From Chthoniobacteraceae bacterium (GTDB taxonomy: Bacteria > Verrucomicrobiota > Verrucomicrobiia > Chthoniobacterales > Chthoniobacteraceae), in NCBI GenBank assembly GCA_028293625.1, contig JAQGOL010000030.1:730566-794565 (forward strand): a DNA stretch of 64,000 bases. The letters run 5' to 3'. The notes under the pieces were generated by a model. It was given only the letters and a program-made list of their open reading frames with translations. It searched no databases and was not told the DNA's origin. Made by a program: the position numbers and the translations under genes. Positions 43,501-60,869 of the stretch are shown here, piece after piece (position 1 is the first letter of the stretch; each line of letters opens with the position of its first letter).

Positions 43501-44050
43501 TCAGCGCAAACGGTTGATCCTGGAATCCATGCGCCCGGTTGAAGGTTGGAGGCGTAGCCACCGCGATCGTTGCCGAATTTGCCGCGCCGGGCGTTGGCTG
43601 CGAAAGAAAACTAATCCCGTCAAATGAGACGTCCGGCAACTGCTGCGGATAGCTAACCTCCAAACCACCTACTCCGCCCGGCGGTGTCAGGGAAAGCCGC
43701 TCTCCTCCCGCGCTCAGGGCAAAATTCGTATGCAGATTTCCGCTGGTAGGAACCCGATTTTTTCCCGACGCAAAGATGACAAGATAGCCATCAGCCGGGA
43801 TTGAAACAGCCGGGAAAGTCCATTTGGCCGGCGTATCGTGTTCATCGCTGAGGTGCCAGCCCGCCAGGGCCACCGACGTGGCTCCCGTGTTATGCAATTC
43901 AAGCCAGTCCGGAAACTCCCCGTCTTCATCGGCAATGACGCTCTGGCCCGCGGCCATCACTTCAGAGATGACCACATCGCCTTTTGCGATGGCCCCAAAA
44001 AGGAGGAAAATGGCCAATGCAGAGTAATAAATAAGCGCCCCAAATTTCAT
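37571..44050 (-). CDS. Giant secreted CotH/lamin-tail/PA14 multidomain protein
   Basis: A 2159-residue exported protein (signal LIYYSALAIFLLFGAIAKG). Domains in order: a lamin-tail domain (about 25-130), a chitobiase C-terminal-like beta domain (about 170-235), a CotH kinase-type domain (about 335-690, with IRIRGGASRDSNNPKHSFRF and FRFFVHDFELSML), and a second chitobiase-like domain. Three more lamin-tail domains follow (for example TEIHYNPPAVEGATGDDGEF), then an Ig-like domain, a PA14 domain (GLKGEYFANAELAGEPI), two Ig/cadherin-like domains, an InlB-B-type repeat and a beta-rich end. There is no PEP-CTERM or other sorting tail. Probably a cell-surface or matrix protein. Confidence 0.85.
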   Translation of the reverse strand: MKFGALIYYSALAIFLLFGAIAKGDVVISEVMAAGQSVIADEDGEFPDWLELHNTGATSVALAGWHLSDEHDTPAKWTFPAVSIPADGYLVIFASGKNRVPTSGNLHTNFALSAGGERLSLTPPGGVGGLEVSYPQQLPDVSFDGISFLSQPTPGAANSATIAVATPPTFNRAHGFQDQPFALTLTSSTPGASIHYTLDGTEPGAASALYTGPVIIKTTSIVRAATFAPAIKASPAVTRTYLFTGDIIQQSANGKAPRGWPATWGSAKVDYGMDPRIAAKAPYSRTIATDLRTIPSLSVAMPLDDLFNPNDGIYSNPSEKGREWERPMSLELIDPAGTPGFQINGGIRIRGGASRDSNNPKHSFRFLFRKEYGASALKYPLFGPEGASRTSFFDIRWDHLDSWNYVDDSKALFLRDIFGRHSQLATGQPAKRGQFYHLYINGEYWGLYNTDERVTSNYCVEYFGGSENDYDIVKFDAESLGGDGFTDGTLGSWRRLFDAGLRGFENNAEYFKVQGLNPDGSRNKDFERLLDVDNLIDYMLVGIYCAATDNPPSFGTQNNWYSVRSRKDDFGFRFFVHDFELSMLTKDDNIVESEPVENPFEFINSDNANPWHYWQAMRHNAEFRLRVADRIQKHFFNGGALSTEASTARWQALMDQLDRAIVAESARWGDAAQHNSRPGPGPIFGAQSLAACQALFEKRDGIVPGEPPPRPGPKPGPQPHVKTKPHTRAEWLAACNAMLTDYFPNRTGIVFEQLSQAHLYPSVAAPEFPQILRANALGTTATDVQESGLQIVNPNAAGQIFYTIDGSDPRRIGGTVASSAIAYTKPVNVARASLVRARIRDGAIWSALVETNQVPAPVYDGLKVTEIHYNPPAVEGATGDDGEFIEIKNTGTIPLPLSGATFTAGIEFTFPANTILAPGTFFVIARNAAVFASQHPGVAPNGIFAGKLSDDGETLTLTTAERATLFSFTYGDHGSWPVAADGLGFSLVHSEDGKGNEPSNWRASAERGGSPGIDDPQPALFSKVFVNEVLARPEDGGHAGIELFNAGAAPADISGWWLSNEQQVPRKFRVPPNTVIAPGGYLVFDDAQIGTAFAFTPTGGAAWLFSADSTGALTGYVHGFGFESTLKGMSVGRYLNSAGEEQFPSLSAATLGSANASPLASSLRIVELHYAPGSDGDEFVEIENVSDQAASIEGARLLDFLFPAGAVIPAHGRALLTALAPEVFRTKYAVAQEVPIFGPTPGALDDENRVVEFQLPMSIGGVSGFFTAESFHYQSRKPWPTGAAGFGASLQRIHSAAYADEPLSWLAAVPTPGAGNTVNAPPRLTLTSPLDGTSTLPPSTIMFAAIASDVDGVVVKVEFLVDNLVVGVSQKAPFAFEWKPTPGLHDLSARATDDGGATSETDFVTVDVDATQNGTGLGLKGEYFANAELAGEPIVRDDATIDFDWAEAAPMPGIPHEHFSVRWSGKLLPRASGEHTLIVSTAGGVRLSVNGSLLIDQWGEVKSGGVSDFEAVVSLVAGEPADVLLEYAERDGFGQCALRWNEPGNFSGSPITETQLYLPGQDPDALGISLASKLDARRVGRAFQTKLAASNGAPPYVWTIAAGALPQGVTLDGSGLLGGAAQKAGGFNFTLRVRDHDGATAERAVTLRIVDGSHPEWRPTVKILTPANRASFGEGNVNVSGTATSRIGLDTVRYSLNNGPWYTLKENAAWSLLLDAARGLRGGANQLQIIATDVDGRESVPAAVNFNRVLVRPLTVSVTGAGTISSEFLGTTRRIVDRSYTIVAKPAPGWVFQEWLGYGGNAERLQFQMMENLEITAVFVPNPYADKGGSYTALIGEELLEHASRGALVLQLGRTGGFTANLDLAGRRYPLRGSFDVFGNYFAQIGGNTKDDFIYLSLQFNPETFSIALQVNQSRGGEFSESKGLARRISWSAQKPCPAAGSYTMAIMNPVDQGVQSNGFATLNISSAGGSRLIGALADGTPWSSNATLDDDAALTLYTALYKGTGSISGKLTFTLQRGARGDGRLVWCIPGTKIAKPLSRTLEASALPYQVPASGEPALVYTKAQIDLDGGGLEAPIEKLASLDGGNRFVFDSPGAENLQIVIAPATGIVSGTFMHPVQGLTKIRGIAMQPGNRIYGFFIGKNGPGSLTVREHIIFLP

Positions 44051-46937: not shown

Positions 46938-47720
46938 GTCGCGTTCCGGGATTTGAAAAATGACCTATTTCAATTTTCTTTAATTCCTTGATCCCGGTTC
47001 GCCTTTTAAGTGCCCGTTGGTCGTGAAGAAGACGCGCGAAAATAAGTCCGTTGTCCCTTATTGAGCGCAACTTAAAAAAACGCGGGCGCATTTTGTCCGT
47101 TTTGCTTCCTTGCGCTGATCGAGCCCAGTTTGGTTCCCACGCTCCAAACCGTGGCGTCTCAAAGCTCCTGAATGGTCAATCCTCCGGCGCTTCGCCTTCC
47201 GATGGCGGCCGATCAGCATAAAACGGAAAATCAGCTCACAATTGATCCCTCTTTCAGCTGCCCTCGGCCGGCTGATTGGCGCCGTGTATTTTGGCCTGCA
47301 TGACACCGGTGTCCGGATATCGGTAGGAAACGCCCGATCGCCCACTTCGAGCAGGCGCATATATATGACCACCTTGGTTCTGCCATTTGCTCACGATGAG
47401 CAAAACGGCACTAAATGGACGGCGATTCCACGACTACTTCGATTGATTGCCGGAGACTCGCGGCTCAATTATTAGCACCCTCAATTGAAAGGGATAACCT
47501 ACATACGCCACTATATACAGCTGGAGTAAAGGAATAAACAATCGCAGCTTTGAAACTCTAATAGGCAACCCGATTGCTACACTATTAGGCATTCTGCGCA
47601 AAAGTAACCATCCCGATGCGCGAAAACGTTCCGAATCGAGGCCCTGACTGTTTAGCGCTAGTAGGCCGGCTCGCCGCCAAAAACCTCGTTGGAACATCAA
47701 TTTCACAGGGTAGGTGAGTG
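46938..47720. other. Long gap with no supported gene
   Basis: Short frames here, such as 47058-47372 and 47434-47796 on the minus strand, have no recognisable domain or ribosome binding site and unusual composition. A hairpin with AATAAG/CTTATT and outer GCGC pairs lies at 47034-47068, about 100 bp upstream of the response regulator, and a CCACG/CGTGG dyad at 47137-47154. No IS, tRNA or rRNA was seen. The stretch may be decayed DNA or a leader region. Confidence 0.5.
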
Positions 47721-47771
47721 ACGCAAAGTTGCGTGGCACGGGATCGGCTAACTGCGGCGTCGCACGTGCCA
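47721..47771. promoter_or_regulatory. Compound inverted repeats and sigma-54-like element before the copper oxidase island
   Basis: ACGCAA-AG-TTGCGT (47721-47734) is a perfect 14-bp dyad. It abuts TGGCACG at 47734-47740, repeated in inverse as CGTGCCA at 47765-47771. The + strand element also keeps the GG-N10-GC spacing of sigma-54 promoters (GG 47735-47736, GC 47747-47748) with a perfect TGGCACG, but the -12 part reads CGGC, not TTGC. The galactose-oxidase-like gene starts 47 bp downstream of the last arm. Confidence 0.45.
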
Positions 47772-47817
47772 ACCGCACCCATCCGGCGACAACCAACCAT
47801 CCTCTCGCCTAGTAAAC

Positions 47818-50484
47818 ATGCAGTTACAAACCACAATGAAAAGCCAAAGCTGTAAGTGCGCTCCCCCCGGCAAGCGCAAGTTCACCAAGTTCATCCTCAC
47901 TGCCGCCATTGCAACTACGCTGACGGGAGTCCACAGCGTGCAAGCTCACGATGGTAACATCATCAAGCAGGAGATCTTCCCGGTCGGCAAATCAGGCTTG
48001 CTTCCCGATACGGAAACAGATCCCACCAAGGATGGCGTAGTCGGTCCGCTGCTCCCAATGCACACAATGAGCGTGCATAATACGCTGGTCTGGAAACGCG
48101 GGGCACAGTGGCCCGGCATGCTCATGTTCCACCGGCACTCGGCCTATCGCGCCGATGAAGTGGCCAACCCGGCTGTTATTCACTTCCTCATCGATAACCC
48201 GAATCCGACGACGGGTCTGACTGCGTTCTCCAGTTCGGCGAACCAGTTCAACTCCTCGATGCGGCGTTCGTTCCAGCAGCTCTGCTACGGCGGCTATAAC
48301 ATCATTCACGATGTCAGCCAGAGCGTGCCTACTCGTATCCGTGTCGACCAGACCCGTGAGATGACCCAGCTCTGGGACATGAACCACCCGGACGCGTTTA
48401 AGTATAATTTCGGCGCGCCAATTCATTCCGCGGCGCTGCTCGATAACTCCGACGCCGAAGTCAACCTGGCGGCATTCAAGAACATGGGTTACTCCAAGGG
48501 CTTGTATTACGACATGTATTGCCCCGGCTTTGCCACGCTCGAAGACGGGCGCGCGGTATTCGCCGGCGGCCACGACATGAACAGCCAGAACGGCTTGTAT
48601 CGCATCCAGGTTTACGACCCAGATCTCGAAGGCTGGGCAAATCGTCCGGTGTCGTGCATGCGCGACCTCTACGGCTCGGATCCAACCGATCCCTATTTCG
48701 AAAACTTCTATCAGGCTGAAATTCAGCGGCTCGCCGCCGCGGGTTTGCCAGCTACGGATATCTACAAACTCTATCTTCCTGATTGCGATCCGCACGCCCT
48801 CGGTGCCGATGACTATTCGAAGACCCCAGGGTATGAGAAGATCCGTCTGATGGGTGCGACCGGCACGGTCACTCAGCCCGGCAGACTGACTTCCGATATG
48901 CGTTATGCCCGCTGGTATCCAGGGCAGGTCGCCCTCCCGGGCAATCGCCTTCTGATCTACTCGGGCTGGGATCGCGACGAATCCAAGTATCCGTCGGAAC
49001 CAACCACGGGCACGCCACCGGTGCTGCGGGCTCCCGACGCTTCAACGTTGGCGATGAAACCCTTCATCGACGCCAAGGCGCTCAATCCAAGTCTTTACCC
49101 CGATCTGCCGCCGACGGCGCAGCTTGCCGGCTTTATGAAAGCGGGCGGCGACACGGACTTTGCCGGCACTCGTGTCAAGCAGCCTGTGCCCGAGATCTTC
49201 GATGGCACCCGCGACACCATGACGGCGCTTGAAAACGCGCGCCTCTTCACGGGAGCCTGGTATCCCAACGGTCTTGTCGTCCAAACCGGCCCGCTTCGTG
49301 ACGACTGGAAGGTCGGCATCAATGACGGCAAGCTTCTGGAAGACGTGCCCAACGGTGTAACTGACAGCTCGCTGGCTGACCGTGCATTCCACAATATGTG
49401 GCTGCTCGACGTCCAGGGCGCTCTCAAGGATCCCGACGTCAATAAGCCTCAGGTGCGCGAAGGCAAATACCTCAAGCTGCTTAGTGAAGCCGCAAACAGC
49501 CACACCTCCTTCACCGGCAGTTCGAACCTGATGAAGCTCGACAAGCTCGGCAAGGTCCTCTCCCACAAGCTCACCCACTTCGGCGGCCAGCATGCCACGA
49601 CAGGGAACTCGGCTGACATTGAGCAGATCAGCTTCGAGGGAATGAGCAAGGCGGTTACCAAGAAGGATCCGACTCCGGGAGCCGCTCCTGCGTGGAAGGT
49701 ATTGGTGCCTGCGCTTTACCAGCCCGGCCGCCAAAACTACGGCACACCGCTTCCTGACGGCACCACGGTGCTTCTGGGCGGCAACGGCGGAACCCTGCCT
49801 GGCATCGAAGCATGGAGTCTCCATCTCCAGCACTTCATCCCAAGCGACAGCGATAGCCCGATGGCGATGGCTGATATGGATCAGTGCAATAAACTCGCCA
49901 AATCGCTGATTCCGCGTGATGAGCACGGCATCATTCAGCTTATGCCGGACGGCCGGGTTTACCTCGGTGGCCAGAACCGGAACGGCTTGGTGCGCGCAGG
50001 CGATCCTGCCGCTCCCCTGGGCGACTCCGATCTGGGCGTTCCCTGCGGCCAGCTCTTCTCGCCTCCGTATCTGTTTGATCCCGCGACTGGCCAGCCCGCC
50101 GAGCGTCCGGTCATCCTGAGCGGTCCTGACTCGGTTACCTACGGAAAACCGTTCCCGGTAACAGCTCTCACAAAGAAGGGTATTAAAGCAGTTACCTTGA
50201 TCCGCACCGGATCGATGTCGCATTCGCTCAATACCGATGTGCGCTACGTGAAGGTGGAGTTCAAGGCCGGCAAGACAGTCAACAACATGGTAAACCTGAC
50301 GGTCTATCCGCCTAAACTTCCCGCCACGGCGGTTGGCGGTTACTACTACCTGTTCATCCTCGACAACGCGGGTGTTCCGAGCATCGCCAAGGTGACCGTC
50401 GTCGGCACGGAAATCGACAAGCGCATCAAAGCGCTCAAGAAAGCCAATCTGCTGACCACAGCGGCAAAGACTGCCGCCAAGTAA
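47818..50484 (+). CDS. Secreted galactose-oxidase-like (copper-radical) protein with DUF1929 domain
   Basis: An 888-residue exported protein (signal FILTAAIATTLTGVHSVQA) with a Kelch-type propeller and a C-terminal DUF1929 domain (FSPPYLFDPATGQPAERPVI). The copper site is visible against galactose oxidase: C235 in YDMYCPGFATLEDGRAVFAGG fits the cross-linked cysteine, Y367 in RYARWYPGQVALPG its tyrosine partner, and H703 and H802 (RTGSMSHSLN) the copper histidines. The second tyrosine position appears as glutamate (E702). A large insert separates C235 and Y367. Oxidation of an alcohol or aldehyde to make H2O2 is the family expectation. A strong hairpin follows. Confidence 0.8.
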   Translation: MQLQTTMKSQSCKCAPPGKRKFTKFILTAAIATTLTGVHSVQAHDGNIIKQEIFPVGKSGLLPDTETDPTKDGVVGPLLPMHTMSVHNTLVWKRGAQWPGMLMFHRHSAYRADEVANPAVIHFLIDNPNPTTGLTAFSSSANQFNSSMRRSFQQLCYGGYNIIHDVSQSVPTRIRVDQTREMTQLWDMNHPDAFKYNFGAPIHSAALLDNSDAEVNLAAFKNMGYSKGLYYDMYCPGFATLEDGRAVFAGGHDMNSQNGLYRIQVYDPDLEGWANRPVSCMRDLYGSDPTDPYFENFYQAEIQRLAAAGLPATDIYKLYLPDCDPHALGADDYSKTPGYEKIRLMGATGTVTQPGRLTSDMRYARWYPGQVALPGNRLLIYSGWDRDESKYPSEPTTGTPPVLRAPDASTLAMKPFIDAKALNPSLYPDLPPTAQLAGFMKAGGDTDFAGTRVKQPVPEIFDGTRDTMTALENARLFTGAWYPNGLVVQTGPLRDDWKVGINDGKLLEDVPNGVTDSSLADRAFHNMWLLDVQGALKDPDVNKPQVREGKYLKLLSEAANSHTSFTGSSNLMKLDKLGKVLSHKLTHFGGQHATTGNSADIEQISFEGMSKAVTKKDPTPGAAPAWKVLVPALYQPGRQNYGTPLPDGTTVLLGGNGGTLPGIEAWSLHLQHFIPSDSDSPMAMADMDQCNKLAKSLIPRDEHGIIQLMPDGRVYLGGQNRNGLVRAGDPAAPLGDSDLGVPCGQLFSPPYLFDPATGQPAERPVILSGPDSVTYGKPFPVTALTKKGIKAVTLIRTGSMSHSLNTDVRYVKVEFKAGKTVNNMVNLTVYPPKLPATAVGGYYYLFILDNAGVPSIAKVTVVGTEIDKRIKALKKANLLTTAAKTAAK

Positions 50485-50514
50485 ACAACCAAGGGGCTTG
50501 CCCCGTGTAAGTTG

Positions 50515-50546
50515 AGTGGAGCGGCCCGTCAAAAGGCCGCTCCACT
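50515..50546 (+). terminator. Strong hairpin after the galactose-oxidase-like gene
   Basis: A perfect 12-bp stem, AGTGGAGCGGCC against GGCCGCTCCACT, with an 8-nt loop, 30 bp after the stop. The tail ATTTCC is only weakly T-rich. It may terminate, or protect and uncouple the oxidase transcript from the genes downstream. Confidence 0.65.
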
Positions 50547-50600
50547 ATTTCCACCCGTTTTTTGGTCTCCCCACCTATTTCTCCACCACTTTTTTTTTGC

Positions 50601-51284
50601 ATGCGAAACAGACTTTCTATTGGCGCACTTTTTGCCGCTGTCATCAGCTTGATCCTCGGCGTTGTTTATTATTTAAATCTGCCGGGCCCGCTTCCGCCTC
50701 CTATCGCATCAGCCACGAGCGAGCCGGTCAAACCCGCTGAAATCCAACCGGCCAAAGATGCGGCACTGGGGGTGATGGAAACCGTCACCACACCACCCAA
50801 GACATTTGGCGGTCAGCTCTCTCCCGATGCCACCTCGATGGAGGAGTTCTCCAGCAATCCAAAGCGCGATCCGGCCGAACAAGGCGTGCTTGACCTGGCC
50901 GCCGAGCGCGGAGTGAGTGATCAGGTCAAGGTGCAGCGGCTGCTCGCCATGATTCCGAATCTGCCGCCCGATGCGCAGACATTGGCCATGGAGAACGCAA
51001 CGGCGCTGATCCCGGACACCAATTATCTTACTTACCGCGGCCAGTTGCTTCAACTTGCGAAATCTCCGGAGATGAGGGAGACCGTCATGAACGATTCACT
51101 CACACGCGGAGAGGATTTGCGCCTGCCAAACCTGCTGGAGATGCTGCGCACTTCCACGGATGAAGCGGAAAAAAAGGAAATCCGCGAAATCTTCGAAGCT
51201 TACCTCGATAAAGATTACGGTCCGCAGCCTTCGCAGTGGGAAGCGCCGCTTCGCAAGTGGGTGGCAGAAAACGCTGACAAGTAA
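50601..51284 (+). CDS. Membrane-anchored hypothetical protein
   Basis: A 227-residue protein with an N-terminal membrane helix (IGALFAAVISLILGVVYYLN), a proline/alanine-rich linker and a helical domain of about 130 residues: VQRLLAMIPNLPPDAQTLAMENATAL and LPNLLEMLRTSTDEAEKKEIREIFEAYL. The latter resembles a HEAT-like helix pair. It ends 3 bp before the cupredoxin-PA14 gene, so co-transcription is very likely. I do not recognise the family; it may be an assembly or tether protein for the copper oxidases. Confidence 0.7.
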   Translation: MRNRLSIGALFAAVISLILGVVYYLNLPGPLPPPIASATSEPVKPAEIQPAKDAALGVMETVTTPPKTFGGQLSPDATSMEEFSSNPKRDPAEQGVLDLAAERGVSDQVKVQRLLAMIPNLPPDAQTLAMENATALIPDTNYLTYRGQLLQLAKSPEMRETVMNDSLTRGEDLRLPNLLEMLRTSTDEAEKKEIREIFEAYLDKDYGPQPSQWEAPLRKWVAENADK

Positions 51285-51287
51285 TCC

Positions 51288-52505
51288 ATGGCCAGACCCT
51301 TGGCTTGCTCAATGACAAAACCGACGCGCATGACTGTCCGTTTGCGGCATTGCAAAGTATTGGCGTTGCTGACAGCCGGGCTTCTGAGTTCATTTCTACT
51401 AAATCGAGTTCAGGCGGCGACCTATGACGTCGATGTGGTTGACTTTGAGTTTGTTCCCAGCACGCTGGTTATCGCGCCGGGAGATACGGTGGTCTGGCAT
51501 GCAAGCGCGCCCGATCATACCGTCACTGCCGATGACCTGAGCTTCGATTCCTCGCCCGAGCCCGATACCGTCACGCTGTCAAGTGGGGCCACGTTTTCCC
51601 ACACATTCCCCACCGTCGGGATCAACCATTACTACTGCCGGATTCACGGGAAACCACTTGCGGCAAGGGGGATCGGAATTTCCAGTACGCCTGATGATGT
51701 TATGACAGGCGTCATCCGCGTGGCGGACCCGTCGGTTAACACGCCTCCTGAGACGCCGCTCAATTCGACACCAGCCGCTGGATCAACCGGTGTCTCCAAC
51801 AGCCCGCTCCTGCAGGCGACGGCTTTTGGCGATCCCGACATCGATGACAAGCACGCAGCCAGCCAATGGCTTATTCGCATCGTCGAAAGCAACACCATTA
51901 TCCTCGATTCAGGCGTGGATACGGCGAACCTTACGCAGCTGCGCGCCACGGGACTCACCGCTTCGATCACCTATTCCTGGCAGGTGCGTTATCAGGATGA
52001 CCGCGGCGCGTGGAGCGGCTACTCGATCCCGACGCAATTTACCGTGGCGGAAGATGCCGGCGCCGGCACCGGGCTGACGGGCACCTACTTCGCCTACGAC
52101 GCCAAGCGTGACATCATTAAAAAGCAAGTGGGCACACGCCTCGATCCGGTGCTCGATTTTGAATGGGCCCTTGGAAAACCGCATCCTTCCGCTCCCGCCA
52201 ACAACTTCTTCATCTACTGGGAAGGAAACATCCTGCCGAAGTTCTCGGAGGAATATCGCTTCCGGATCAAGGCCGATGGCGGCGTGCGCCTCTGGATCAA
52301 TGGGCAGATCATCATCAACGACCCCGTGGTGGCGTTGTTTACTCTCTATCGCAGCGGCACGGTGGCGCTGGAGGCAGGTATCCCGGCCACGATCCGCATC
52401 CAATACTTTGACACAATCACCAATGCTTCCATGCATCTGCGCTGGTCGAGCTTAAGTCAGCCGCTCGAAGTTGTCCCGCAGGCCCGCCTTTTTCCCACAC
52501 CGTGA
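51288..52505 (+). CDS. Secreted cupredoxin (plastocyanin-like)-PA14 fusion
   Basis: A 405-residue exported protein (signal VLALLTAGLLSSFLLNRVQA). The first domain (about 45-150) is a type 1 copper cupredoxin: VVDFEFVPSTLVIAPGDTV, the His of ASAPDHTVTA and Cys/His of NHYYCRIHG. The axial Met is probably that of DDVMTGVIRV, after an insertion. An Ig/fibronectin-like middle follows, with TPPETPLNSTPAAGSTGVSN and ITYSWQVRYQDD. A PA14 domain (about 265-395, GLTGTYFAYDAKRD and FRIKADGGVRLWINGQ) ends the protein, which may bind a glycan. The stop overlaps the multicopper oxidase GTG (GTGA). Confidence 0.83.
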   Translation: MARPLACSMTKPTRMTVRLRHCKVLALLTAGLLSSFLLNRVQAATYDVDVVDFEFVPSTLVIAPGDTVVWHASAPDHTVTADDLSFDSSPEPDTVTLSSGATFSHTFPTVGINHYYCRIHGKPLAARGIGISSTPDDVMTGVIRVADPSVNTPPETPLNSTPAAGSTGVSNSPLLQATAFGDPDIDDKHAASQWLIRIVESNTIILDSGVDTANLTQLRATGLTASITYSWQVRYQDDRGAWSGYSIPTQFTVAEDAGAGTGLTGTYFAYDAKRDIIKKQVGTRLDPVLDFEWALGKPHPSAPANNFFIYWEGNILPKFSEEYRFRIKADGGVRLWINGQIIINDPVVALFTLYRSGTVALEAGIPATIRIQYFDTITNASMHLRWSSLSQPLEVVPQARLFPTP

Positions 52506-54013
52506 TTCCACTTCCTCGACGCAAATTCCTTCGCGCAATCGCCGCATTTGGAGGCGCTTCATTTTGCCTGCCTCGGGTGCGCCTTCTGGCACAGACCCAC
52601 GCGCACACCGGCATTACGACTTCCGCTGTCACGGGACTTGCCCCGTTTGTTGATGCATTGCGCATCCCGCCGGTGCTGAAGCCAAAGATCGTCAACAAGG
52701 TCGATACTTACAGCCTCACCATGCAGAGCGGAATGTCCAAATGCCACCGTGATCTGCCTGCAACCGAGATCTGGGGCTACAATGGCATCTTTCCCGGACC
52801 CACTATCGTGGCGACGAAAAATCGCGCCGTTTCCATCAAGCAAACCAACAATCTGCCAATGGCGCATGACGGTGGCGAGATGACGCACATGCTGCCTGCC
52901 GTCCACCTGCATGGCGCGCTTGTTGAGCCTGGCAGCGATGGACATCCAAATGACGGCATCGCTTTTGGCGGAGGAACACGCGACTACCTTTATCCCAACC
53001 AGCAACGCGCCTGTTCGCTTTGGTATCATGACCATACTCATGGCATGACCGGAGAGCGTGTGATGAAAGGTTTGGCCGGACTCTATCTGCTGCGCGATCC
53101 TTCGGTGGAAGCTCCGCTTAAACTTCCAAGCGGCACCCGCGAAATCCCATTGATCATTCAGGATCGGAGTTTTGCCGCGAACGGCCAGTTTATCTATAAC
53201 CTCGACGATGCGACACTCGAGATGGGATTCCAGGGAGACAACATCCTCGTCAATGGTGTTGTCCAGCCGTTCCTTGCGGTGGAAACGGCACTCTACCGGT
53301 TTCGCATCCTTAATGGTTCCAACTCGCGCATCTATAAGCTGGCATTAAGCAATGGCGACCCGCTTATTCAGATTGGGACCGATGGTGGATTACTGCAGCG
53401 TCCAAAGGAGTTGGCCAGTCTTGAAATTGCTCCATCTGAACGCTGCGACATCATCATTGATTTCACGAAGCTGCCGGTTGGTGCGAAGATTGTTCTTGAG
53501 AACCTAAATGGGACGGATTCCACGGCTCAGATCATGCGATTTGACGTGGCAAAACGCGTTACGGAATCAAAAAGCATTCCCGAGTTTCTACAACCCTGGG
53601 AGGAGTTGCCCGAGCAAAAATCGGTGATACTTCGGCAGTTTAATCTTGCCCGGCAAACCCTCAATGGCGCGCTTACCTGGACAATTAACGGATACGCCTA
53701 TAATTCCGCGAATCCGCCCCTTGCAAAGCCGGTAATCGAGACTATCGAACACTGGAACTTCGTTAACCCGACCAATCATCCCCATCCGATGCACCTCCAT
53801 CTGGTGCAGTTCCAGATAGTGAACATCAATGGGGTGCCTCAGGAGGCCTCCGAGTTCGGGTGGAAAGATACCTTTGTGGTGCCTCCCGCAAGTGAAGTCA
53901 CTTTCCTGATCAAGTTCAGCGGATATACGGGACGTTACGTCTTTCATTGCCACAATCTGGAGCACGAGGACTTCGCGATGATGGGCGAGTTCGAAGTGCT
54001 GCCAAAATCATAA
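52502..54013 (+). CDS. Tat-exported multicopper oxidase (CotA/bilirubin-oxidase-like)
   Basis: A 503-residue laccase-type oxidase. A Tat signal (PRRKFLRAIAAFGGAS) starts it, so it is exported folded with copper. Copper motifs are VHLHGALVEPGSDG, WYHDHTHGMTGERVMKGLAG, HPHPMHLHLVQFQIV and VFHCHNLEHEDFAMMGEFEV, which together give type 1, 2 and 3 sites with the Met axial ligand. The GTG at 52502 overlaps the cupredoxin stop. The neighbouring cupredoxin is a natural electron donor; the physiological substrate is not known. Confidence 0.9.
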   Translation: MIPLPRRKFLRAIAAFGGASFCLPRVRLLAQTHAHTGITTSAVTGLAPFVDALRIPPVLKPKIVNKVDTYSLTMQSGMSKCHRDLPATEIWGYNGIFPGPTIVATKNRAVSIKQTNNLPMAHDGGEMTHMLPAVHLHGALVEPGSDGHPNDGIAFGGGTRDYLYPNQQRACSLWYHDHTHGMTGERVMKGLAGLYLLRDPSVEAPLKLPSGTREIPLIIQDRSFAANGQFIYNLDDATLEMGFQGDNILVNGVVQPFLAVETALYRFRILNGSNSRIYKLALSNGDPLIQIGTDGGLLQRPKELASLEIAPSERCDIIIDFTKLPVGAKIVLENLNGTDSTAQIMRFDVAKRVTESKSIPEFLQPWEELPEQKSVILRQFNLARQTLNGALTWTINGYAYNSANPPLAKPVIETIEHWNFVNPTNHPHPMHLHLVQFQIVNINGVPQEASEFGWKDTFVVPPASEVTFLIKFSGYTGRYVFHCHNLEHEDFAMMGEFEVLPKS

Positions 54014-54100
54014 GTTTCTCTTGAAGAGCAGAAGCCCGCCCTGATTTCGGATCGGCCGTATCCCCCCTGCTCACCTCTCTCCCAATTCCAACTCTATTTA

Positions 54101-55531
54101 ATGAATTCCTCACCCCTTTCCCTGCAAACAACCAAATCCCGCCGCTCCGCGAGACGACTCGTGAAGAATGGATTGATTACTCTGGTCTCGATTGGTTGCC
54201 TCATTAAGACCGCGTATGCGGATCGTCCCGCGACATTTTGGACAACCGCATCCGGCGATTTCTTTGATTCAAGCAACTGGAGCCTCGGCTCTCCCGGAAC
54301 CAACCTCGACGCCAAGATCGACAATGGCGGAATTGTCCGAATCAACACCGCGTCCGACGATACAATCCCTTATGTTTTTCTCGGTTCGGCGCAAAACTCC
54401 AGCGGGACACTTGAAGTTACCAGCGGCGGTGTAGCGAACTTTACGACGATGATTGTCGGCGCCTTGAACGCGACGGGAAAACTCAATATCACCGGCGGCG
54501 GCAAGCTTACCAGCTTCGGTGGTCCGATCGGCAGCGACTATCTTGGCGTGGGCATCGCGACCATCGATGGCGCCGGCTCGAGCTGGAAAGTAACGGGCGC
54601 GGAAATGGTGATCGGCGGCAACGGCGTTGGCACTGTTTTTTTACAAAACAGCAGTAGCCTTACAGTGGCCAACGGCTTGGGCAGAGTTGAGCTCGCGGAC
54701 CATCCGCTTGCGGAAGGAACCTTGTCGATTGGCAACGGTGGAATAGCAGGAACGCTGAGCGCGAGTGAAATCTACAACGGCGAAGGTATGGCCACTGTGA
54801 TCTTCAATCACAGCAATGCCGCGCTTACCGTGGCCACCAAATTTACCGGCGTTCAAACCGTCCGTGGTTATCTGAATATTATCCAGCAAGGCTCGGGCAC
54901 GACGGTCCTGAGCGCGCCGGAAAGCAATCTGGCTGGTAAGATTACGGTCTCCGGAGGAACCCTCCTTGTCACTGGCAGGATCATGGGGAGCGTCACGGAC
55001 GTAGTCGTGGACGAGATGCTGATGCAGGAGAGAACCGTGGGTGAAACGCTGGTCACTGCCAATGGCACTCTTGGTGGAACAGGCTTTCTTGAGGGAAAAA
55101 CGACCATTCAAGGAAAACTTTCGCCTGGTATAGCCACAGGCATCCTGAAGTTCGGGGGCGACTTAAGCCTTTCCTCCACCAGTACCGTGAAGATCGAGCT
55201 CGGCGGCACGGTTCGCGGAACCCAGTTTGACGCAGTGGACGTTGCCGGCGTTCTGGCTTACGCAGGAACCCTGAGGATCGACATGCTCAATGGGTTTGTC
55301 CCATCGCAAGGTCTTACCTTTGACCTATTCAATGGCTATAGCTCCTACTCCGGCACATTTGCGAATATCGAGTTTTCCTCGGGAAATTACGCGGGTGCAT
55401 TCGATCCGGTTACGGGAATACTTTCCGTCACCACGATTCCTGAGCCGGGCATTCTTGGACTTGCCGCCATCGGGATGGCGACTCTCGGCTTGCGCCGGCG
55501 CAATCGCGGCAAACAACAACGCACACGCTAA
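54101..55531 (+). CDS. PEP-CTERM surface protein with autotransporter-type beta repeats
   Basis: A 476-residue exported protein. The mature part contains repeats such as SSGTLEVTSGGVANFTTMIVG and ATGKLNITGGGKLTSFGGPI, typical of autotransporter-associated beta strands. The end reads TIPEPGILGLAAIGMATLGL followed by an arginine-rich tail, the PEP-CTERM sorting signal (PEP, hydrophobic helix, basic end). PEP-CTERM proteins are processed by an exosortase and often accompany exopolysaccharide; no exosortase is in the window. It follows the multicopper oxidase by 87 bp. Confidence 0.85.
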   Translation: MNSSPLSLQTTKSRRSARRLVKNGLITLVSIGCLIKTAYADRPATFWTTASGDFFDSSNWSLGSPGTNLDAKIDNGGIVRINTASDDTIPYVFLGSAQNSSGTLEVTSGGVANFTTMIVGALNATGKLNITGGGKLTSFGGPIGSDYLGVGIATIDGAGSSWKVTGAEMVIGGNGVGTVFLQNSSSLTVANGLGRVELADHPLAEGTLSIGNGGIAGTLSASEIYNGEGMATVIFNHSNAALTVATKFTGVQTVRGYLNIIQQGSGTTVLSAPESNLAGKITVSGGTLLVTGRIMGSVTDVVVDEMLMQERTVGETLVTANGTLGGTGFLEGKTTIQGKLSPGIATGILKFGGDLSLSSTSTVKIELGGTVRGTQFDAVDVAGVLAYAGTLRIDMLNGFVPSQGLTFDLFNGYSSYSGTFANIEFSSGNYAGAFDPVTGILSVTTIPEPGILGLAAIGMATLGLRRRNRGKQQRTR

Positions 55532-55540
55532 GGCGCCTTT

Positions 55541-56212
55541 ATGAATTTTTCAATCAGGTCTCTCTACAAGCCTGCTTTTGCGGCGGCATTGCTCGTTACT
55601 TCCTTCACGGCCCGCGCCGAGCTAGTCTGGGAAAAGAAAGAAGTCCAACTCAAGGCGACCCCTTTTGATAAGGAGGTCGTGGCTCATTATCCGTTTAAAA
55701 ACGAAGGAACTGAGCCGGTTAAGTTCAAAGCCTTCAAGGGCGCGTGCAGTTGCGTGTCAATTACGGTGAGCACAATGGTGGTCCCTCCGGGAACAACGGG
55801 TGAAGTCACCGTGAAATTCACCCCGGAATTTCGCATCGGAAACCAAAAACGCCCGATCGCCGTGCTGTTCGACGACGACAAACAGACCAAGATGGCCCTC
55901 TATCTTAAGGTTGAGATCCCCGAGATCATTCGTCCGGATCCTATCTTCTTGAAATGGGCCGAGGGAGAGAATCTTGGGCCCAAGACGGCGACAATTGTTG
56001 TCGATGAACAATATCCGATGACCGATTTCAGTGTGCGTCCCATCAATCCGCTTTGGACAGCGACGATCACGCCGATTGAGAACAGCCGTAATTACACCCT
56101 TCAGATTCTGCCCAAACGCTCCGACCAACCGCAGGCCCAGTATGTGGAAGTAGAGGCAAAACTCGCCGACGGCCAGCTTAAGCGTATGAATATCTATGTT
56201 GTGGTGCGGTAA
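55541..56212 (+). CDS. DUF1573 domain protein, secreted
   Basis: A 223-residue exported protein (signal AFAAALLVTSFTARA). DUF1573 is clear: ELVWEKKEVQLKATPFDKEV, YPFKNEGTEPVKFKAFKGACSC (with the CSC pair), VPPGTTGEVTVKF. DUF1573 proteins are beta-sandwich envelope proteins; they frequently stand next to rhodanese- and MauE/DoxX-type genes, as they do here. The cysteine pair might bind a metal or a thiol partner, but this is inference. It starts 9 bp after the PEP-CTERM gene. Confidence 0.88.
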   Translation: MNFSIRSLYKPAFAAALLVTSFTARAELVWEKKEVQLKATPFDKEVVAHYPFKNEGTEPVKFKAFKGACSCVSITVSTMVVPPGTTGEVTVKFTPEFRIGNQKRPIAVLFDDDKQTKMALYLKVEIPEIIRPDPIFLKWAEGENLGPKTATIVVDEQYPMTDFSVRPINPLWTATITPIENSRNYTLQILPKRSDQPQAQYVEVEAKLADGQLKRMNIYVVVR

Positions 56213-56236
56213 CAACGCTCCATCCCGTCGCGCTGT

Positions 56237-56737
56237 ATGACACGGCTGCTCCTGGCTGACGCAGCCTGGTTTATAGCCGCTGCGCTCATCGCGCTGGGGA
56301 TGGGAATGGTCGGTGACCGGTTCTTTCGGCATCCGCCTTTGGGCTGGCATTACCAGACGGCCGCGCAACGGGTATTGGCCATGCCCGGATCCCAGGCACC
56401 AATCAATATGGTGAGCGTGGAGGAGGTCAGCGCCCTCGTTTCCCGGCCGGACGTGATCACGCTCGATGCGCGGCCCCGCATTTTTTACGAGCTGGGTCAT
56501 TTACCAGGTGCTCGCAGCCTCTCCCGTGAACAGTTTGACGTCGACTTCGCGATTATTGAAAAGGAGCTGCGCGTCCCCGGACATACCTTGCTCGTCTACT
56601 GCTCGGATGCGAGTTGCGAGGATAGCGCGATTGTTGCCCATGAACTACAAAAGCGCGGCCTGGGTCCACTGATTCTCTTCCCTGGAGGACTTGAAGAATG
56701 GGAGGCCGCCGGACATCCGGTGGAGACAGTCCCGTGA
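56237..56737 (+). CDS. Membrane-anchored rhodanese-like protein
   Basis: A 166-residue protein with an N-terminal membrane segment (AAWFIAAALIALGMGMVGD) and a rhodanese domain (about 65-165). The active cysteine is in LLVYCSDASCEDSAIVAHEL, and LDARPRIFYELGHLPGARSL is the conserved first half. It could transfer sulfur or act as a thiol/metal-handling protein on the outer face. The stop forms a GTGA overlap with the MauE-like gene. Together with DUF1573 the three genes look like a redox or metal-insertion module. Confidence 0.87.
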   Translation: MTRLLLADAAWFIAAALIALGMGMVGDRFFRHPPLGWHYQTAAQRVLAMPGSQAPINMVSVEEVSALVSRPDVITLDARPRIFYELGHLPGARSLSREQFDVDFAIIEKELRVPGHTLLVYCSDASCEDSAIVAHELQKRGLGPLILFPGGLEEWEAAGHPVETVP

Positions 56738-57192
56738 AAAAGCGGCACCTCGATCGGCAGGCGCGCTGCTGGACTTTTTTACACTGGGTTTTGGCCGGTA
56801 TCTTTCTCTACGCCGCGCTCATGAAGCTCCACGACGCCGCCGCTTTTGCCGCCAGTATCGCGCGGTTTCAAATGCTGCCGAGCTTTCTAATTCATCCGAT
56901 GGCGCTTGGCCTGCCACCGCTGGAGATGCTGTGCGGCCTTGCTCTCCTGGCCGGTCGATGGAAACGGCAGGCAGCCTTTGGGATCGCCCTGCTTTGCGCG
57001 CTTTTTCTAGTGGCTCTCCTTTCAGCCTCGGCCCGGGGAATCAGCATTGAATGCTCGTGCTTTGGCGCGGCTGCCGCTGAGCCGCTTTGGAAGTTGCTTG
57101 TACGTGACCTTCTACTGCTCGCGGGAGCCATGGGCATCTACCTCCGTGCCCTGGGCTATCCGGCAAGCTCGCCCGGAACCAAGTGTGCTTAA
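56734..57192 (+). CDS. MauE/DoxX-like redox-associated membrane protein
   Basis: A 152-residue protein with four hydrophobic helices: HWVLAGIFLYAALMKL, LGLPPLEMLCGLALLAG, FGIALLCALFLVALLSA and LLVRDLLLLAGAMGIYL. The loop SIECSCFG gives a CxC motif of MauE-type proteins, which feed disulfide or reductant to periplasmic maturation, as in methylamine dehydrogenase assembly. The GTG at 56734 is used because of the GTGA overlap with the rhodanese gene; an upstream ATG (56698) would overlap far more. It ends before the di-haem propeller gene. Confidence 0.82.
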   Translation: MKKRHLDRQARCWTFLHWVLAGIFLYAALMKLHDAAAFAASIARFQMLPSFLIHPMALGLPPLEMLCGLALLAGRWKRQAAFGIALLCALFLVALLSASARGISIECSCFGAAAAEPLWKLLVRDLLLLAGAMGIYLRALGYPASSPGTKCA

Positions 57193-57439
57193 TAAAACAT
57201 TTAGGTGTCTGCATTAAGCCGCCCAGACAAAATCGCCCCAACTTCCCCGGTTTAACTAGCCGGACGAATTTGTTTGAAGAGCGCAGATTACCCGAAGGAG
57301 CGGCGCCGCTTCCTGCCCCATCCTCCCGTGCTGGCATGGACGGTGCTAAGGGTCGCGTCTCACAAAACCATCCATCTGTCCGCGCTCATTCCTCCCCGCA
57401 ATGAGCTGCTTTTATCACTCTCCTTTTAGTGAGACCCGC

Positions 57440-60085
57440 ATGCCCATTTCTTTTCTTTCCAAATCCTTTAGCCGCCTTGTTATTTTCGCATTTGGAGCAG
57501 GCGTTGCAATGTTCGGCGCTGCACAAGCCGGCGCACAAACCTTCGCGCATTTTGAAGCCCGCCAGGTCCATCCGATCGCATTGACCCCGGACGGCAAACG
57601 GTTGCTGGCACTGAACTCTCCGGAAGGCCGTCTGTCGGTTTTCGATGTCTCAAACAGTGCCAGCCCCGAGCCGGTGCTCATTGCTGAAATACCAGTCGGG
57701 ATTGAGCCGGTCTCAGTTCGTGCCCGAACCAATGACGAGGTATGGGTGGTTAATGAAGTCTCCGACAGCGTCTCCATTGTCTCGCTAAGCCGCGCGGTGG
57801 TGACCGATACGCTGCGCGCTTCGGATGAACCGGCAGACATTCTTTTTACCAGTGGCAAGGCGTATGTCAGCTGCGCCCGGAGCAACGCCGTCAAGGTTTT
57901 CGATGTCACCAGCCACGCTGAACTTTCAACCATCGCCCTGACCGGACTTTATCCAAGGGCACTCGCAGCCAGCGCCGACGGAACAAAGGTTTATGCCGCT
58001 TTCCTCTACTCGGGAAATCGCACCACCGTGTTGACCGCCGATCAGGCTCCGCCGCAGCCTGCACCGACCAATCCCGCCTTGCCGGCCGCCCCGGATACCG
58101 GCCTTATCGTGGCAGCCTCGGATCCTCGCGTTCCTTACACCGTGCTGGATAACGACGTGGCCGAGATCAATACCGCAACCAACGCGGTTACCCGCTACTT
58201 CACCGGCGCGGGCACCAATCTTTTCGATATCGCGGTGCAACCCGGCACCGGCGATCTTTGGGTGCCGAACACCGAGGCGCGCAACACCGTCCGTTTCGAA
58301 CCGGTGCTGCGCGGGCATTTTGCTGATAACCGTGTCACCAGGCTTCTGGTCTCCAACGCGACTGCCTCGCCATTCGACCTGAATCCGAATGTAAACTACG
58401 CGGAGCTCCCCAGCCCCGGCGCCCAAGCTACCGCACTCGCGCAGCCCACCTCCGCCCTCTTTTCGCCCGACGGCGCCAGCTTCTGGATCGCCGCCTTTGC
58501 CAGCGATCGTCTCGCCAAGATCAGCACCGCCGGCGCCGTGCTCAATCGGATCGACGTGCGCACACCTCCCGCAGCTGGCGGCGATAATGGGTCCCGAAAA
58601 ATGCGCGGGCCACGCGGCCTCGTATGGAATGGCACCGGCACATGGATTTACGTTTTGAACAAGCTCTCAAATACCGTGAGCGTCGTTGATACCAACGCAG
58701 GGGCGGTCCTGGCCGAGACGGCGGTCGGCGGCTACGATCCAATGCCTGCCAATATTAAGGAAGGCCGCGGTTTCCTTTTTGATGCGCGCCTCTCGGGCAA
58801 TGGGACCATGAGCTGCGCCACCTGCCACGTCGATGCCGACCTTGATGGCATCGCATGGGATCTGGGTGATCCGGGCGGAGCCATGGTGACTGTCATGGGC
58901 GCAAACGCTGCGGCCCATCAGACCACGCTGATCGCCCGTGAAATCCATCCCATGAAGGGGCCGCTCACCACGCAGACACTGCGCGGCATGCAAGCCGGAG
59001 CGCCTTTCCACTGGCGCGGTGACAAGCCGACGCTTCAGAGCTTCAACCCGACTTTTGACAAACTCATGGCCGGCTCGCAGCTCGCGGTCGCGGACATCAA
59101 CTCGCTCTCCGCTTATCTGCTCACTTTGCGGCACCACCCAAATCCAAATAAGAATTTAAACAATACACTGCCGACGACGTTTGCCGGCGGGAACCCGGCG
59201 GCGGGCAAAACGCTTTTTGACGATCATGTCAAAAGCCATTGCGTCACCTGTCATGGCGGCGCGCAGGGATCCAATAACAATCTCGATGACTTCCGGCTGA
59301 CTGATTCCCGCGATCAGGTGAAAACACCGCCCATCCGCACGGTTTATCAGCGTCTCTTTCTCAACCGGACTGCCGGCTCGCAAAGTATCTCCGGGTATGG
59401 CTTGGGACGCAACGGCACCGGGCCCGCCAATTTCCTGCCGACGATTCATTTTTACGATCTCGATATGCTGGAAACAGCGGCCGAGTTTGCCGATGTCAAA
59501 GCGTATGTCCTTTGTTTCGACACCGGGACACCGCAATCAGCGGCGGTCGCGCGCACGGTGACCGCTGCGAACATGACCCAAAGCGCTGTGCTTGCCGACA
59601 TCACGCTGCTGGAAAGCCAGTCGATCTCCTCGCTGAATGATCTTGTGGTGCAAGGGATTATCAGCGGCAAATCACGCTCGTTTTTCTACAATCGAACCAC
59701 CTTTCGTTACATCTCCGACAAGGCCGACGAAACCCCTCTCACACGCAATCAGTTGCTGGCCGCGCTCGGAACAACCGACGCCGTGACTTTCAGCGGCACC
59801 CTCATTGGCCAGGGTTTGCGCCGGGGCGGCGATCGCGACCGCAATGGCGTCCTGGATGCCGATGAGCCGCCACCCGGCATCAATTTAAACCGCGCCACTG
59901 CTGCCGCGGTGGAAGTCGCCTGGCCTGAGACGCCCGGTGGCTGGGCTCTGGAACGCGCGCCGGCTCCAGGCGGCCCGTGGACTGCGCTCCTGCTTCCATT
60001 CAATCACACAGGCGGTTTCCTGCGGGTCAATTACGACCCGTTGGGCGCTTCATCGGGTTTCTTCCGACTCCGCCGCACCTGGTAA
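57440..60085 (+). CDS. Secreted beta-propeller di-haem cytochrome c peroxidase-like protein
   Basis: An 881-residue exported protein (signal VIFAFGAGVAMFGAAQAGAQ). The N-terminal ~430 residues form a YVTN-type propeller (YVSCARSNAVKVFDVTS, WIYVLNKLSNTVSVVDTN). Two haem-binding CxxCH motifs follow: SCATCHVDADLDG at 459-463 and CVTCHGG at 601-605. LSGNGTMSCATCH and MKGPLTTQTLRGMQ match the MauG/CcpA di-haem peroxidase family. The last ~150 residues hold a small beta domain. A role in reducing H2O2 or in oxidising a protein substrate is possible. The ATG at 57440 is chosen for its signal peptide. Confidence 0.85.
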   Translation: MPISFLSKSFSRLVIFAFGAGVAMFGAAQAGAQTFAHFEARQVHPIALTPDGKRLLALNSPEGRLSVFDVSNSASPEPVLIAEIPVGIEPVSVRARTNDEVWVVNEVSDSVSIVSLSRAVVTDTLRASDEPADILFTSGKAYVSCARSNAVKVFDVTSHAELSTIALTGLYPRALAASADGTKVYAAFLYSGNRTTVLTADQAPPQPAPTNPALPAAPDTGLIVAASDPRVPYTVLDNDVAEINTATNAVTRYFTGAGTNLFDIAVQPGTGDLWVPNTEARNTVRFEPVLRGHFADNRVTRLLVSNATASPFDLNPNVNYAELPSPGAQATALAQPTSALFSPDGASFWIAAFASDRLAKISTAGAVLNRIDVRTPPAAGGDNGSRKMRGPRGLVWNGTGTWIYVLNKLSNTVSVVDTNAGAVLAETAVGGYDPMPANIKEGRGFLFDARLSGNGTMSCATCHVDADLDGIAWDLGDPGGAMVTVMGANAAAHQTTLIAREIHPMKGPLTTQTLRGMQAGAPFHWRGDKPTLQSFNPTFDKLMAGSQLAVADINSLSAYLLTLRHHPNPNKNLNNTLPTTFAGGNPAAGKTLFDDHVKSHCVTCHGGAQGSNNNLDDFRLTDSRDQVKTPPIRTVYQRLFLNRTAGSQSISGYGLGRNGTGPANFLPTIHFYDLDMLETAAEFADVKAYVLCFDTGTPQSAAVARTVTAANMTQSAVLADITLLESQSISSLNDLVVQGIISGKSRSFFYNRTTFRYISDKADETPLTRNQLLAALGTTDAVTFSGTLIGQGLRRGGDRDRNGVLDADEPPPGINLNRATAAAVEVAWPETPGGWALERAPAPGGPWTALLLPFNHTGGFLRVNYDPLGASSGFFRLRRTW

Positions 60086-60109
60086 GTTCACAACCTGACC
60101 GTTATAATT

Positions 60110-60838
60110 ATGAAAAAAAGATATTGCCTGGCCGCCTTCGCCGGCCTGCTTGGTTATTCCGCAACCGAAGCGAGCACCGTTTCCCAAACCGACCCGCAGG
60201 CAGGCGGTATCATCTACCGCTGGACTGTTTCATTGGGAGCCGATGATTCCGCCTCGGTCAGCCGGCATGTCGGTGCCTGGGCATGGCAGGACAGCTCACT
60301 CTTTGGCTCCGGCGAAACCCCGGTCGGCTGGACTCATAATTCAGAGTGGGTGGCTCTCAAACTGGAGCTCCCTGCGCTGGTGACTTTTCGGCTTTCCAAC
60401 ATAGCCGGTGTCCCCAATCCCACTTCACTCGATCCGAATGCAGTCGCGCCTGCCAATTTGTATCCCGGTATGACGATTTACTCGGGCTGGGATAACGATC
60501 TGGCGCCTCAGTCTTTTGCGGATGCAAACAACGAAGGAACGCCCACCGACAACTGGCATTCGTATGTCAACCGCGGCGATATCGAATGGGCCGAGGATAC
60601 GCATTACTTCACGCACCTGGAACCGAATGGCACGCACGTCATCGAGGCGACCATGCTCATGCCAGCCGGTGAATACACGATCGCCATCGGCGGCAAATCG
60701 ATCTCGACGAGCAGCGAGCCCCGCCAGGGTTATCTGGCGAGCTTTTCAACCAGCGCCGTGCCGGAGCCGTGCACCACATCCCTCGCCCTCCTGGGCGGTC
60801 TGGCTTTGCTCAGCAAACGCCGGCGCCAGTCACGTTGA
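60110..60838 (+). CDS. PEP-CTERM-anchored secreted protein
   Basis: A 242-residue exported protein (signal YCLAAFAGLLGYSATEA). The body is a single beta-rich domain, with WTVSLGADDSASVSRHVGAWAW and LKLELPALVTFRLSNIAGV. The C-terminus is AVPEPCTTSLALLGGLALLS followed by KRRRQSR, a PEP-CTERM sorting signal. It begins 24 bp after the di-haem peroxidase gene and probably shares its transcript, so it is likely the surface partner of that protein. It is convergent with cysNC, 31 bp away. Confidence 0.83.
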   Translation: MKKRYCLAAFAGLLGYSATEASTVSQTDPQAGGIIYRWTVSLGADDSASVSRHVGAWAWQDSSLFGSGETPVGWTHNSEWVALKLELPALVTFRLSNIAGVPNPTSLDPNAVAPANLYPGMTIYSGWDNDLAPQSFADANNEGTPTDNWHSYVNRGDIEWAEDTHYFTHLEPNGTHVIEATMLMPAGEYTIAIGGKSISTSSEPRQGYLASFSTSAVPEPCTTSLALLGGLALLSKRRRQSR

Positions 60839-60869
60839 TCGCGTGCTTTTTTCGCGCCGAACGGGCCGC

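Follow-up and report, generated by a model that had tools for sequence, protein, structure and literature searches.

A candidate surface copper-capture and copper-oxidase island in a member of the Chthoniobacteraceae

The window analysed here is a stretch of 64,000 nucleotides from a Chthoniobacteraceae bacterium (Verrucomicrobiota; assembly GCA_028293625.1), corresponding to positions 730566-794565 of the 977 kb contig JAQGOL010000030.1 in a genome of 6.8 Mb. According to the list of open reading frames of the window, the block at 47818-60838 consists of ten genes (P0001 to P0010), all on the + strand. Pfam and NCBIfam searches identified galactose-oxidase-like E-set, cupredoxin and PA14, multicopper oxidase and PEP-CTERM families in P0001 and P0003-P0005, and DUF1573, rhodanese, MauE, a Lactonase propeller with a CCP_MauG haem motif, and PEP-CTERM in P0006-P0010. 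This agrees with the original prediction, made from the sequence without database searches, which had listed the same ten genes. With refined starts, the intergenic gaps from P0001 to P0010 are 116, 3, -4, 87, 9, 24, -40, 247 and 24 bp, and 247 bp is indeed the largest, as had been predicted. The features of the block are:

47836..50484, + strand: P0001, exported galactose-oxidase-like protein with Kelch and E-set domains (PF09118, E-value 9e-17; PDB alignment; residue comparison)
48520-48522, 48916-48918 and 49921-49923, + strand: codons of P0001 site residues C235, Y367 and Glu702 (alignment)
49924-49926 and 50221-50223, + strand: codons of P0001 histidine ligands H703 and H802 (alignment)
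50601..51284, + strand: P0002, membrane-tethered protein with an N-terminal helix, a disordered linker and a helical-repeat domain (AlphaFold2; start set by ortholog alignment)
51288..52505, + strand: P0003, exported cupredoxin-PA14 protein (domain search; copper-ligand residues)
52502..54013, + strand: P0004, CotA-like multicopper oxidase (RRKFL signal of the twin-arginine translocation, Tat, type; copper-ligand motifs)
54101..55531, + strand: P0005, PEP-CTERM protein with T5SS/PEP-CTERM-associated repeats (domain search; conserved with the block)
55541..56212, + strand: P0006, exported DUF1573 protein, part of a generic module (domain search; locus survey)
56237..56737, + strand: P0007, membrane-anchored rhodanese, part of the same generic module (domain search; locus survey)
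56698..57192, + strand: P0008, MauE-family membrane protein, part of the same generic module (domain search; order-wide survey)
57440..60085, + strand: P0009, exported propeller/di-c-haem protein, proposed modifier of P0010 (domain search; haem motifs; neighbour linkage)
60110..60838, + strand: P0010, PEP-CTERM protein, putatively of the CorA/MopE-like copper(I) family (family profile; ligand alignment)
60329-60337 and 60557-60559, + strand: predicted copper ligands of P0010, W74-T-H76 and H150 (alignment to CorA)
60831..60845, + strand: terminator-like hairpin with a trailing T6 run where P0010 ends (weakly supported)

The most informative gene of the block is the last one. Profiles of P0010 were built from five homologs and then from eight family units, and were compared with the PDB (177,635 sequences). 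With the five-homolog profile, only CorA (4bz4, E-value 2e-4) and MopE (2vov, 0.42) were matched at E-values up to 10; with the eight-unit profile CorA (4e-4) and MopE (0.033) were again the best matches, the next one, at 0.36, being unrelated and due to chance. In G375, three P0010 units are contained within one 1550-residue partner protein, and this homolog exceeds the cut-off of PF18252 (Cu_bind_CorA; 30.9 vs 27 bits), a profile matched at E-values up to 0.1 by seven of the eight P0010-family units. P0010 is a PEP-CTERM protein, as first labelled, and its apparent membership of the CorA/MopE-like copper(I) family had been overlooked.

The copper ligands point in the same direction. In the five-homolog profile alignment, with residues counted, W62 (Kyn62), H64 and H114 of CorA align with W74, H76 and H150 of P0010, and these three residues are invariant in all eight family units. 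In CorA, Cu(I) is bound by Kyn62, His64 and His114 (PMC3912023), and in MopE by Kyn130, His132 and His203 (PMC3423442). Both proteins are encoded in co-transcribed pairs, corA-corB (PMC3912023) and mopE-SACCP (PMC3621798), and their di-haem peroxidase-like partners are the suspected makers of the kynurenine (PMC3912023, PMC3621798).

A potential partner of this kind is encoded immediately upstream of P0010, 24 bp separating the two genes. P0009 contains two CXXCH haem motifs, CATCH (58814-58828) and CVTCH (59240-59254). Its CCP_MauG match is above the cut-off (31.4 vs 25.6 bits), but extends over just 25 of the 149 positions of the profile, in the vicinity of the first haem motif. The MauG model gave 21 bits against a cut-off of 444 and the MbnH model 24 against 363, and P0009 had no full-length match above the curated cut-off to MauG, MbnH or bacterial cytochrome c peroxidase. 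The NPxEM motif of the distal catalytic Glu/Gln region is absent from P0009 and from two of its homologs; this region does not align confidently with solved members. Hydrazine synthase and lactonase-type N2O reductase were also considered for P0009 and rejected, their matches being limited to the propeller and far below cut-off.

Searches with P0009 returned homologs of 42-54% identity, in two genomes of the order (G039 and G052) and in six further genomes of the phylum. The next same-strand gene after the di-haem gene is a P0010 homolog in five of the nine other loci (RYN_611, G319, G375, G378 and G381). P0009 and P0010 are best read, by analogy, as a CorB/CorA-like pair with a predicted oxidation of tryptophan to kynurenine for a Cu(I) site, and most likely they make and display such a site; tryptophan oxidation and copper binding are what we infer for the two proteins. 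The proposal that the haem protein modifies a target has thus gained a concrete candidate, since the adjacent P0010 carries the CorA/MopE ligand set, while the oxidation itself stays at the level of prediction. G039 and G052 were rejected as further islands, as only the di-haem gene is present there. In four of the five genomes with the pair, the pair is itself followed by a gene for an exported, His-rich protein whose C-terminus is barrel-like (L197:7183-8019, L198:1441-2532, L201:7410-8345 and L202:7057-7902, all outside the window); this family, which may represent outer-membrane copper proteins, had no match in Pfam or NCBIfam.

Recurrence of the block in other genomes was studied starting from P0001. 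A scan of the genome collection returned one ortholog (81% identity), in the metagenome-assembled genome RYN_611, which is listed under a different genus of the same family. On its contig, the galactose-oxidase-like, tethered, cupredoxin-PA14, multicopper oxidase and PEP-CTERM genes are found in the order of the window (81, 69, 68, 79 and 63% identity, respectively), and the contig stops just past the fifth gene. A second RYN_611 contig begins partway through the di-haem gene and so opens with the tail of that gene and a P0010 homolog (72 and 70% identity). When the DNA of the window was compared with that of RYN_611, similarity was confined to the genes of the block, with nothing matching on either side, and the window genes downstream of the block are located elsewhere in the RYN_611 genome. 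Because RYN_611 holds both halves, and the DNA beyond either end does not match, the block is a single discrete unit, albeit a rare one: full-length P0001 was found in two of the 40 genomes of the family that were searched, and three relatives of the same genus lack it. The neighbourhood search suggested with the original prediction has thus shown the linkage to be conserved in a second genus of the family.

In P0001, the E-set domain was matched by Pfam, and C235, Y367, H703 and H802 align with the Cys, the cross-link Tyr and both His ligands of family AA5, Y367 being assigned from its motif alone, without a structure. Spectroscopy of copper radical oxidases describes a site of two His, a Tyr-Cys and an axial Tyr (PMC13094651). 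The Cys, Tyr and His sites expected in the oxidase are therefore there, except that Glu702 takes the place of the axial Tyr (galactose oxidase Y495) in P0001, and likewise in the RYN_611 ortholog, where the surrounding PRDEHG (PRDEHGIIQLMPDG) is also kept. By comparison, all 20 other readable homologs from the order and the phylum have Tyr-His at the axial site. The AlphaFold2 model of P0001, built from two sequences, had a predicted local distance difference test score (pLDDT) of 27.6, and Glu702 was assigned by sequence alignment alone. Because of this replacement, P0001 is not classed here among the AA5 copper radical oxidases; it may nonetheless work like one.

The multicopper oxidase P0004 aligns with CotA over almost its full length (E-value about 1e-91), and all four copper-ligand motifs of the type 1 and trinuclear sites are present. 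The cupredoxin match of P0003 is below the curated cut-off; its His-Cys-His residues are present, and the usual axial Met is absent, though present in cupredoxin-multicopper oxidase fusions. Natural fusions of this kind occur in two genomes of the order, G051 and G052 (L176:3228-5933 and L179:4215-6647), and their domain composition supports the pairing of P0003 with P0004 as the blue-copper pair that had been proposed. The same-genus genome G023 has a separate cluster (L181:2012-7292), in which a multicopper oxidase gene is accompanied by genes for a Tat-type SCO1/SenC protein and for a canonical di-haem cytochrome c peroxidase.

For P0002, the AlphaFold2 model of the helical domain had a pLDDT above 90, and a fold search returned only designed helical repeats, with E-values of 0.05 or worse and no functional clue. 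Divergent members of the P0002 family (50601-51284) are encoded elsewhere in the same genome (L184:5675-6445 and L185:5886-6530), and one of them adjoins a protein with ten CXXCH motifs.

As regards P0006-P0008, 114 of the order's 147 genomes encode MauE homologs. A rhodanese gene adjoins MauE in 28 of the 29 loci examined, and 16 of the 29 have the full DUF1573-rhodanese-MauE order; loci with the trio or with rhodanese-MauE alone include L095:597-2193 and L097-L125. A literature search returned no paper linking DUF1573, rhodanese and MauE with a function. The trio is a general module of the order, and its presence in the block is not specific evidence. For this reason, it was rejected as a dedicated maturation unit, and the proposed maturation of the other proteins by the trio cannot be assigned.

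As to the surroundings, a terminator scan of the region gave 19 sites against 15.9 expected by chance; a promoter scan gave fewer sites than expected by chance, and its result was not used. A segment of about 0.9 kb with no convincing gene (46938-47835) separates the island from a LuxR-type response regulator gene on the - strand and is likely a regulatory region. Further upstream, a - strand gene (37571-44050) encodes a protein of 2159 residues that combines lamin-tail, CotH-kinase and PA14 domains.

Taken together, the gene content, the synteny, the residue conservation, the linkage of the di-haem gene to P0010 and the profile match to CorA/MopE were observed in these genomes; from them we infer a flow of copper between two modules and every catalytic step of the following proposal. 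We suggest, with moderate confidence, that the block is a surface copper-capture and copper-oxidase island formed from two joined modules. In the right module, Trp74 of P0010 would be oxidised by P0009 and become kynurenine, the reaction proposed for CorB acting on CorA and for SACCP acting on MopE; together with His76 and His150, this kynurenine would give the surface protein a Cu(I) site for capturing copper. The left module would comprise the exported copper proteins P0001, P0003 and P0004 and the membrane-tethered helical-repeat protein P0002, with the cupredoxin P0003 and the laccase P0004 as an electron-transfer pair. Copper caught by P0010 may help to metallate the left-module copper proteins; H2O2 from P0001, if the latter is active, could drive the di-haem protein P0009; and DUF1573-rhodanese-MauE would be a generic membrane-proximal thiol/sulfur module recruited to the island.

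Several observations weigh against this reading. P0010 alone scores 15.3 bits against PF18252, below the cut-off of 27, and its single-sequence search of the PDB gave no match, so that it is a distant relative of CorA and MopE, recognised at the family level. No P0010 homolog was found near the P0009 homolog in the neighbourhoods examined in G039, G052, G457 and G478, and four other genomes have the di-haem/P0010 pair without the copper-oxidase half (13-20 kb examined per locus); because of the latter, the two halves of the block are separable modules. The whole block is known in two copies, from one family. The RYN_611 assembly lacks the trio that lies between the modules, as well as the greater part of the di-haem gene; the one trio found in it is a distant paralog. 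The axial Glu may make P0001 inactive, and the flow of copper from P0010 to the oxidases is suggested by gene neighbourhood alone. The occurrence of the di-haem/P0010 pair alone in four genomes would also suit two independent neighbours, a CorB/CorA-like capture pair next to a separate laccase/galactose-oxidase-like cluster with no common function, as would the rarity of the whole block and the separation of its halves by the generic trio and a gap of 247 bp. We nevertheless consider this unlikely, given that RYN_611 has both halves with contig edges at corresponding places, though three same-genus relatives are devoid of P0001.

The scheme put forward originally, in which an active copper-radical oxidase P0001 produces H2O2 at the surface, the di-haem protein consumes this peroxide in modifying or protecting a target, the blue-copper proteins move electrons and the trio matures the set, is likewise improbable in our judgement. 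Four of the five oxidase site residues are present in P0001, the linkage is kept in a second genus, and coupling of a copper-radical oxidase to a haem peroxidase is already known, with different haem proteins, from Streptomyces (PMC4736821) and fungi (PMC9770985). However, because the axial Tyr is Glu, production of H2O2 is weakened and not established; moreover, the trio is generic, and the di-haem/P0010 pair exists without the oxidase. Still less probable is a role like that of GlxA, with P0001 as a cell-surface glycan or structural protein whose radical chemistry is altered or absent, and with the copper proteins taking part in envelope or polysaccharide building. The C-terminus of P0001 does resemble GlxA, which acts with a cellulose synthase-like partner (PMC4736821, PMC11022532), and the block encodes PEP-CTERM and PA14 proteins, but the domain search found no glycan synthase or hydrolase inside it.

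Compared with known systems, the proposed two-module island is closest to CorA-CorB of Methylomicrobium album BG8 and MopE-SACCP of Methylococcus capsulatus (PMC3912023, PMC3423442), where a di-c-haem gene also adjoins the gene of a surface protein; P0010 shares with these surface proteins the Trp-x-His and a later His, and similarity to Cu_bind_CorA, above the cut-off in one homolog. It differs in the PEP-CTERM anchor of P0010 and in the joining of the pair to a copper-oxidase cluster. The haem protein P0009 has a lactonase/YVTN propeller, which may also set it apart from CorB and SACCP. MbnH-MbnP (TIGR04039/TIGR04052; PMC3621798) also combines a di-haem enzyme with an adjacent partner, and P0009 matches TIGR04039 weakly; however, P0010 has no MbnP match, and P0009 aligns with the MbnH model only around haem 1.

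On the oxidase side, GlxA-DtpA-Sco of Streptomyces (PMC4736821) also has a galactose-oxidase-like protein accompanied by a copper-handling partner and a haem peroxidase, but DtpA is a DyP-type peroxidase rather than a di-c-haem protein, the island has no Sco, and P0001, which lacks the axial Tyr, scores 73 vs 800 bits on the GlxA model. In the fungal tandem AlcOx-peroxidase (PMC9770985), the gene of a secreted copper-radical oxidase adjoins that of a haem peroxidase, but the peroxidase is of another family, the genes are only two and the oxidase is canonical. P0004 resembles the CotA/CueO multicopper oxidases in its alignment with CotA and in its ligand motifs, and differs from them in adjoining a cupredoxin-PA14 protein and in its Tat-type signal.

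The strongest new evidence provided by this locus is a CorA/MopE-like pair outside methanotrophs, and its oddest feature is the axial Glu of P0001. To our knowledge, the host family includes no known methanotrophs, and the descriptions of kynurenine copper proteins of the CorA/MopE type come from methanotrophs and link these proteins to methane monooxygenase. A dedicated pipeline, in which P0010, converted to the kynurenine type by the propeller di-haem enzyme, takes up Cu(I) and hands it on to the exported copper enzymes encoded with it, including a copper-radical-type oxidase with an axial glutamate, so that such capture would extend beyond methane oxidation, is a doubtful but conceivable extension of the proposal. 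The ligand set and the di-haem partner occur in several families of the phylum, once beside laccase-type and galactose-oxidase-like proteins, which, if the reading is true, would imply a wider role of this type of copper capture. If so, these loci would also offer new enzyme-substrate pairs for studying the oxidation of protein tryptophan by di-haem enzymes, and the Tyr-to-Glu change of P0001 is a natural test of the role of the axial ligand in copper radical enzymes.

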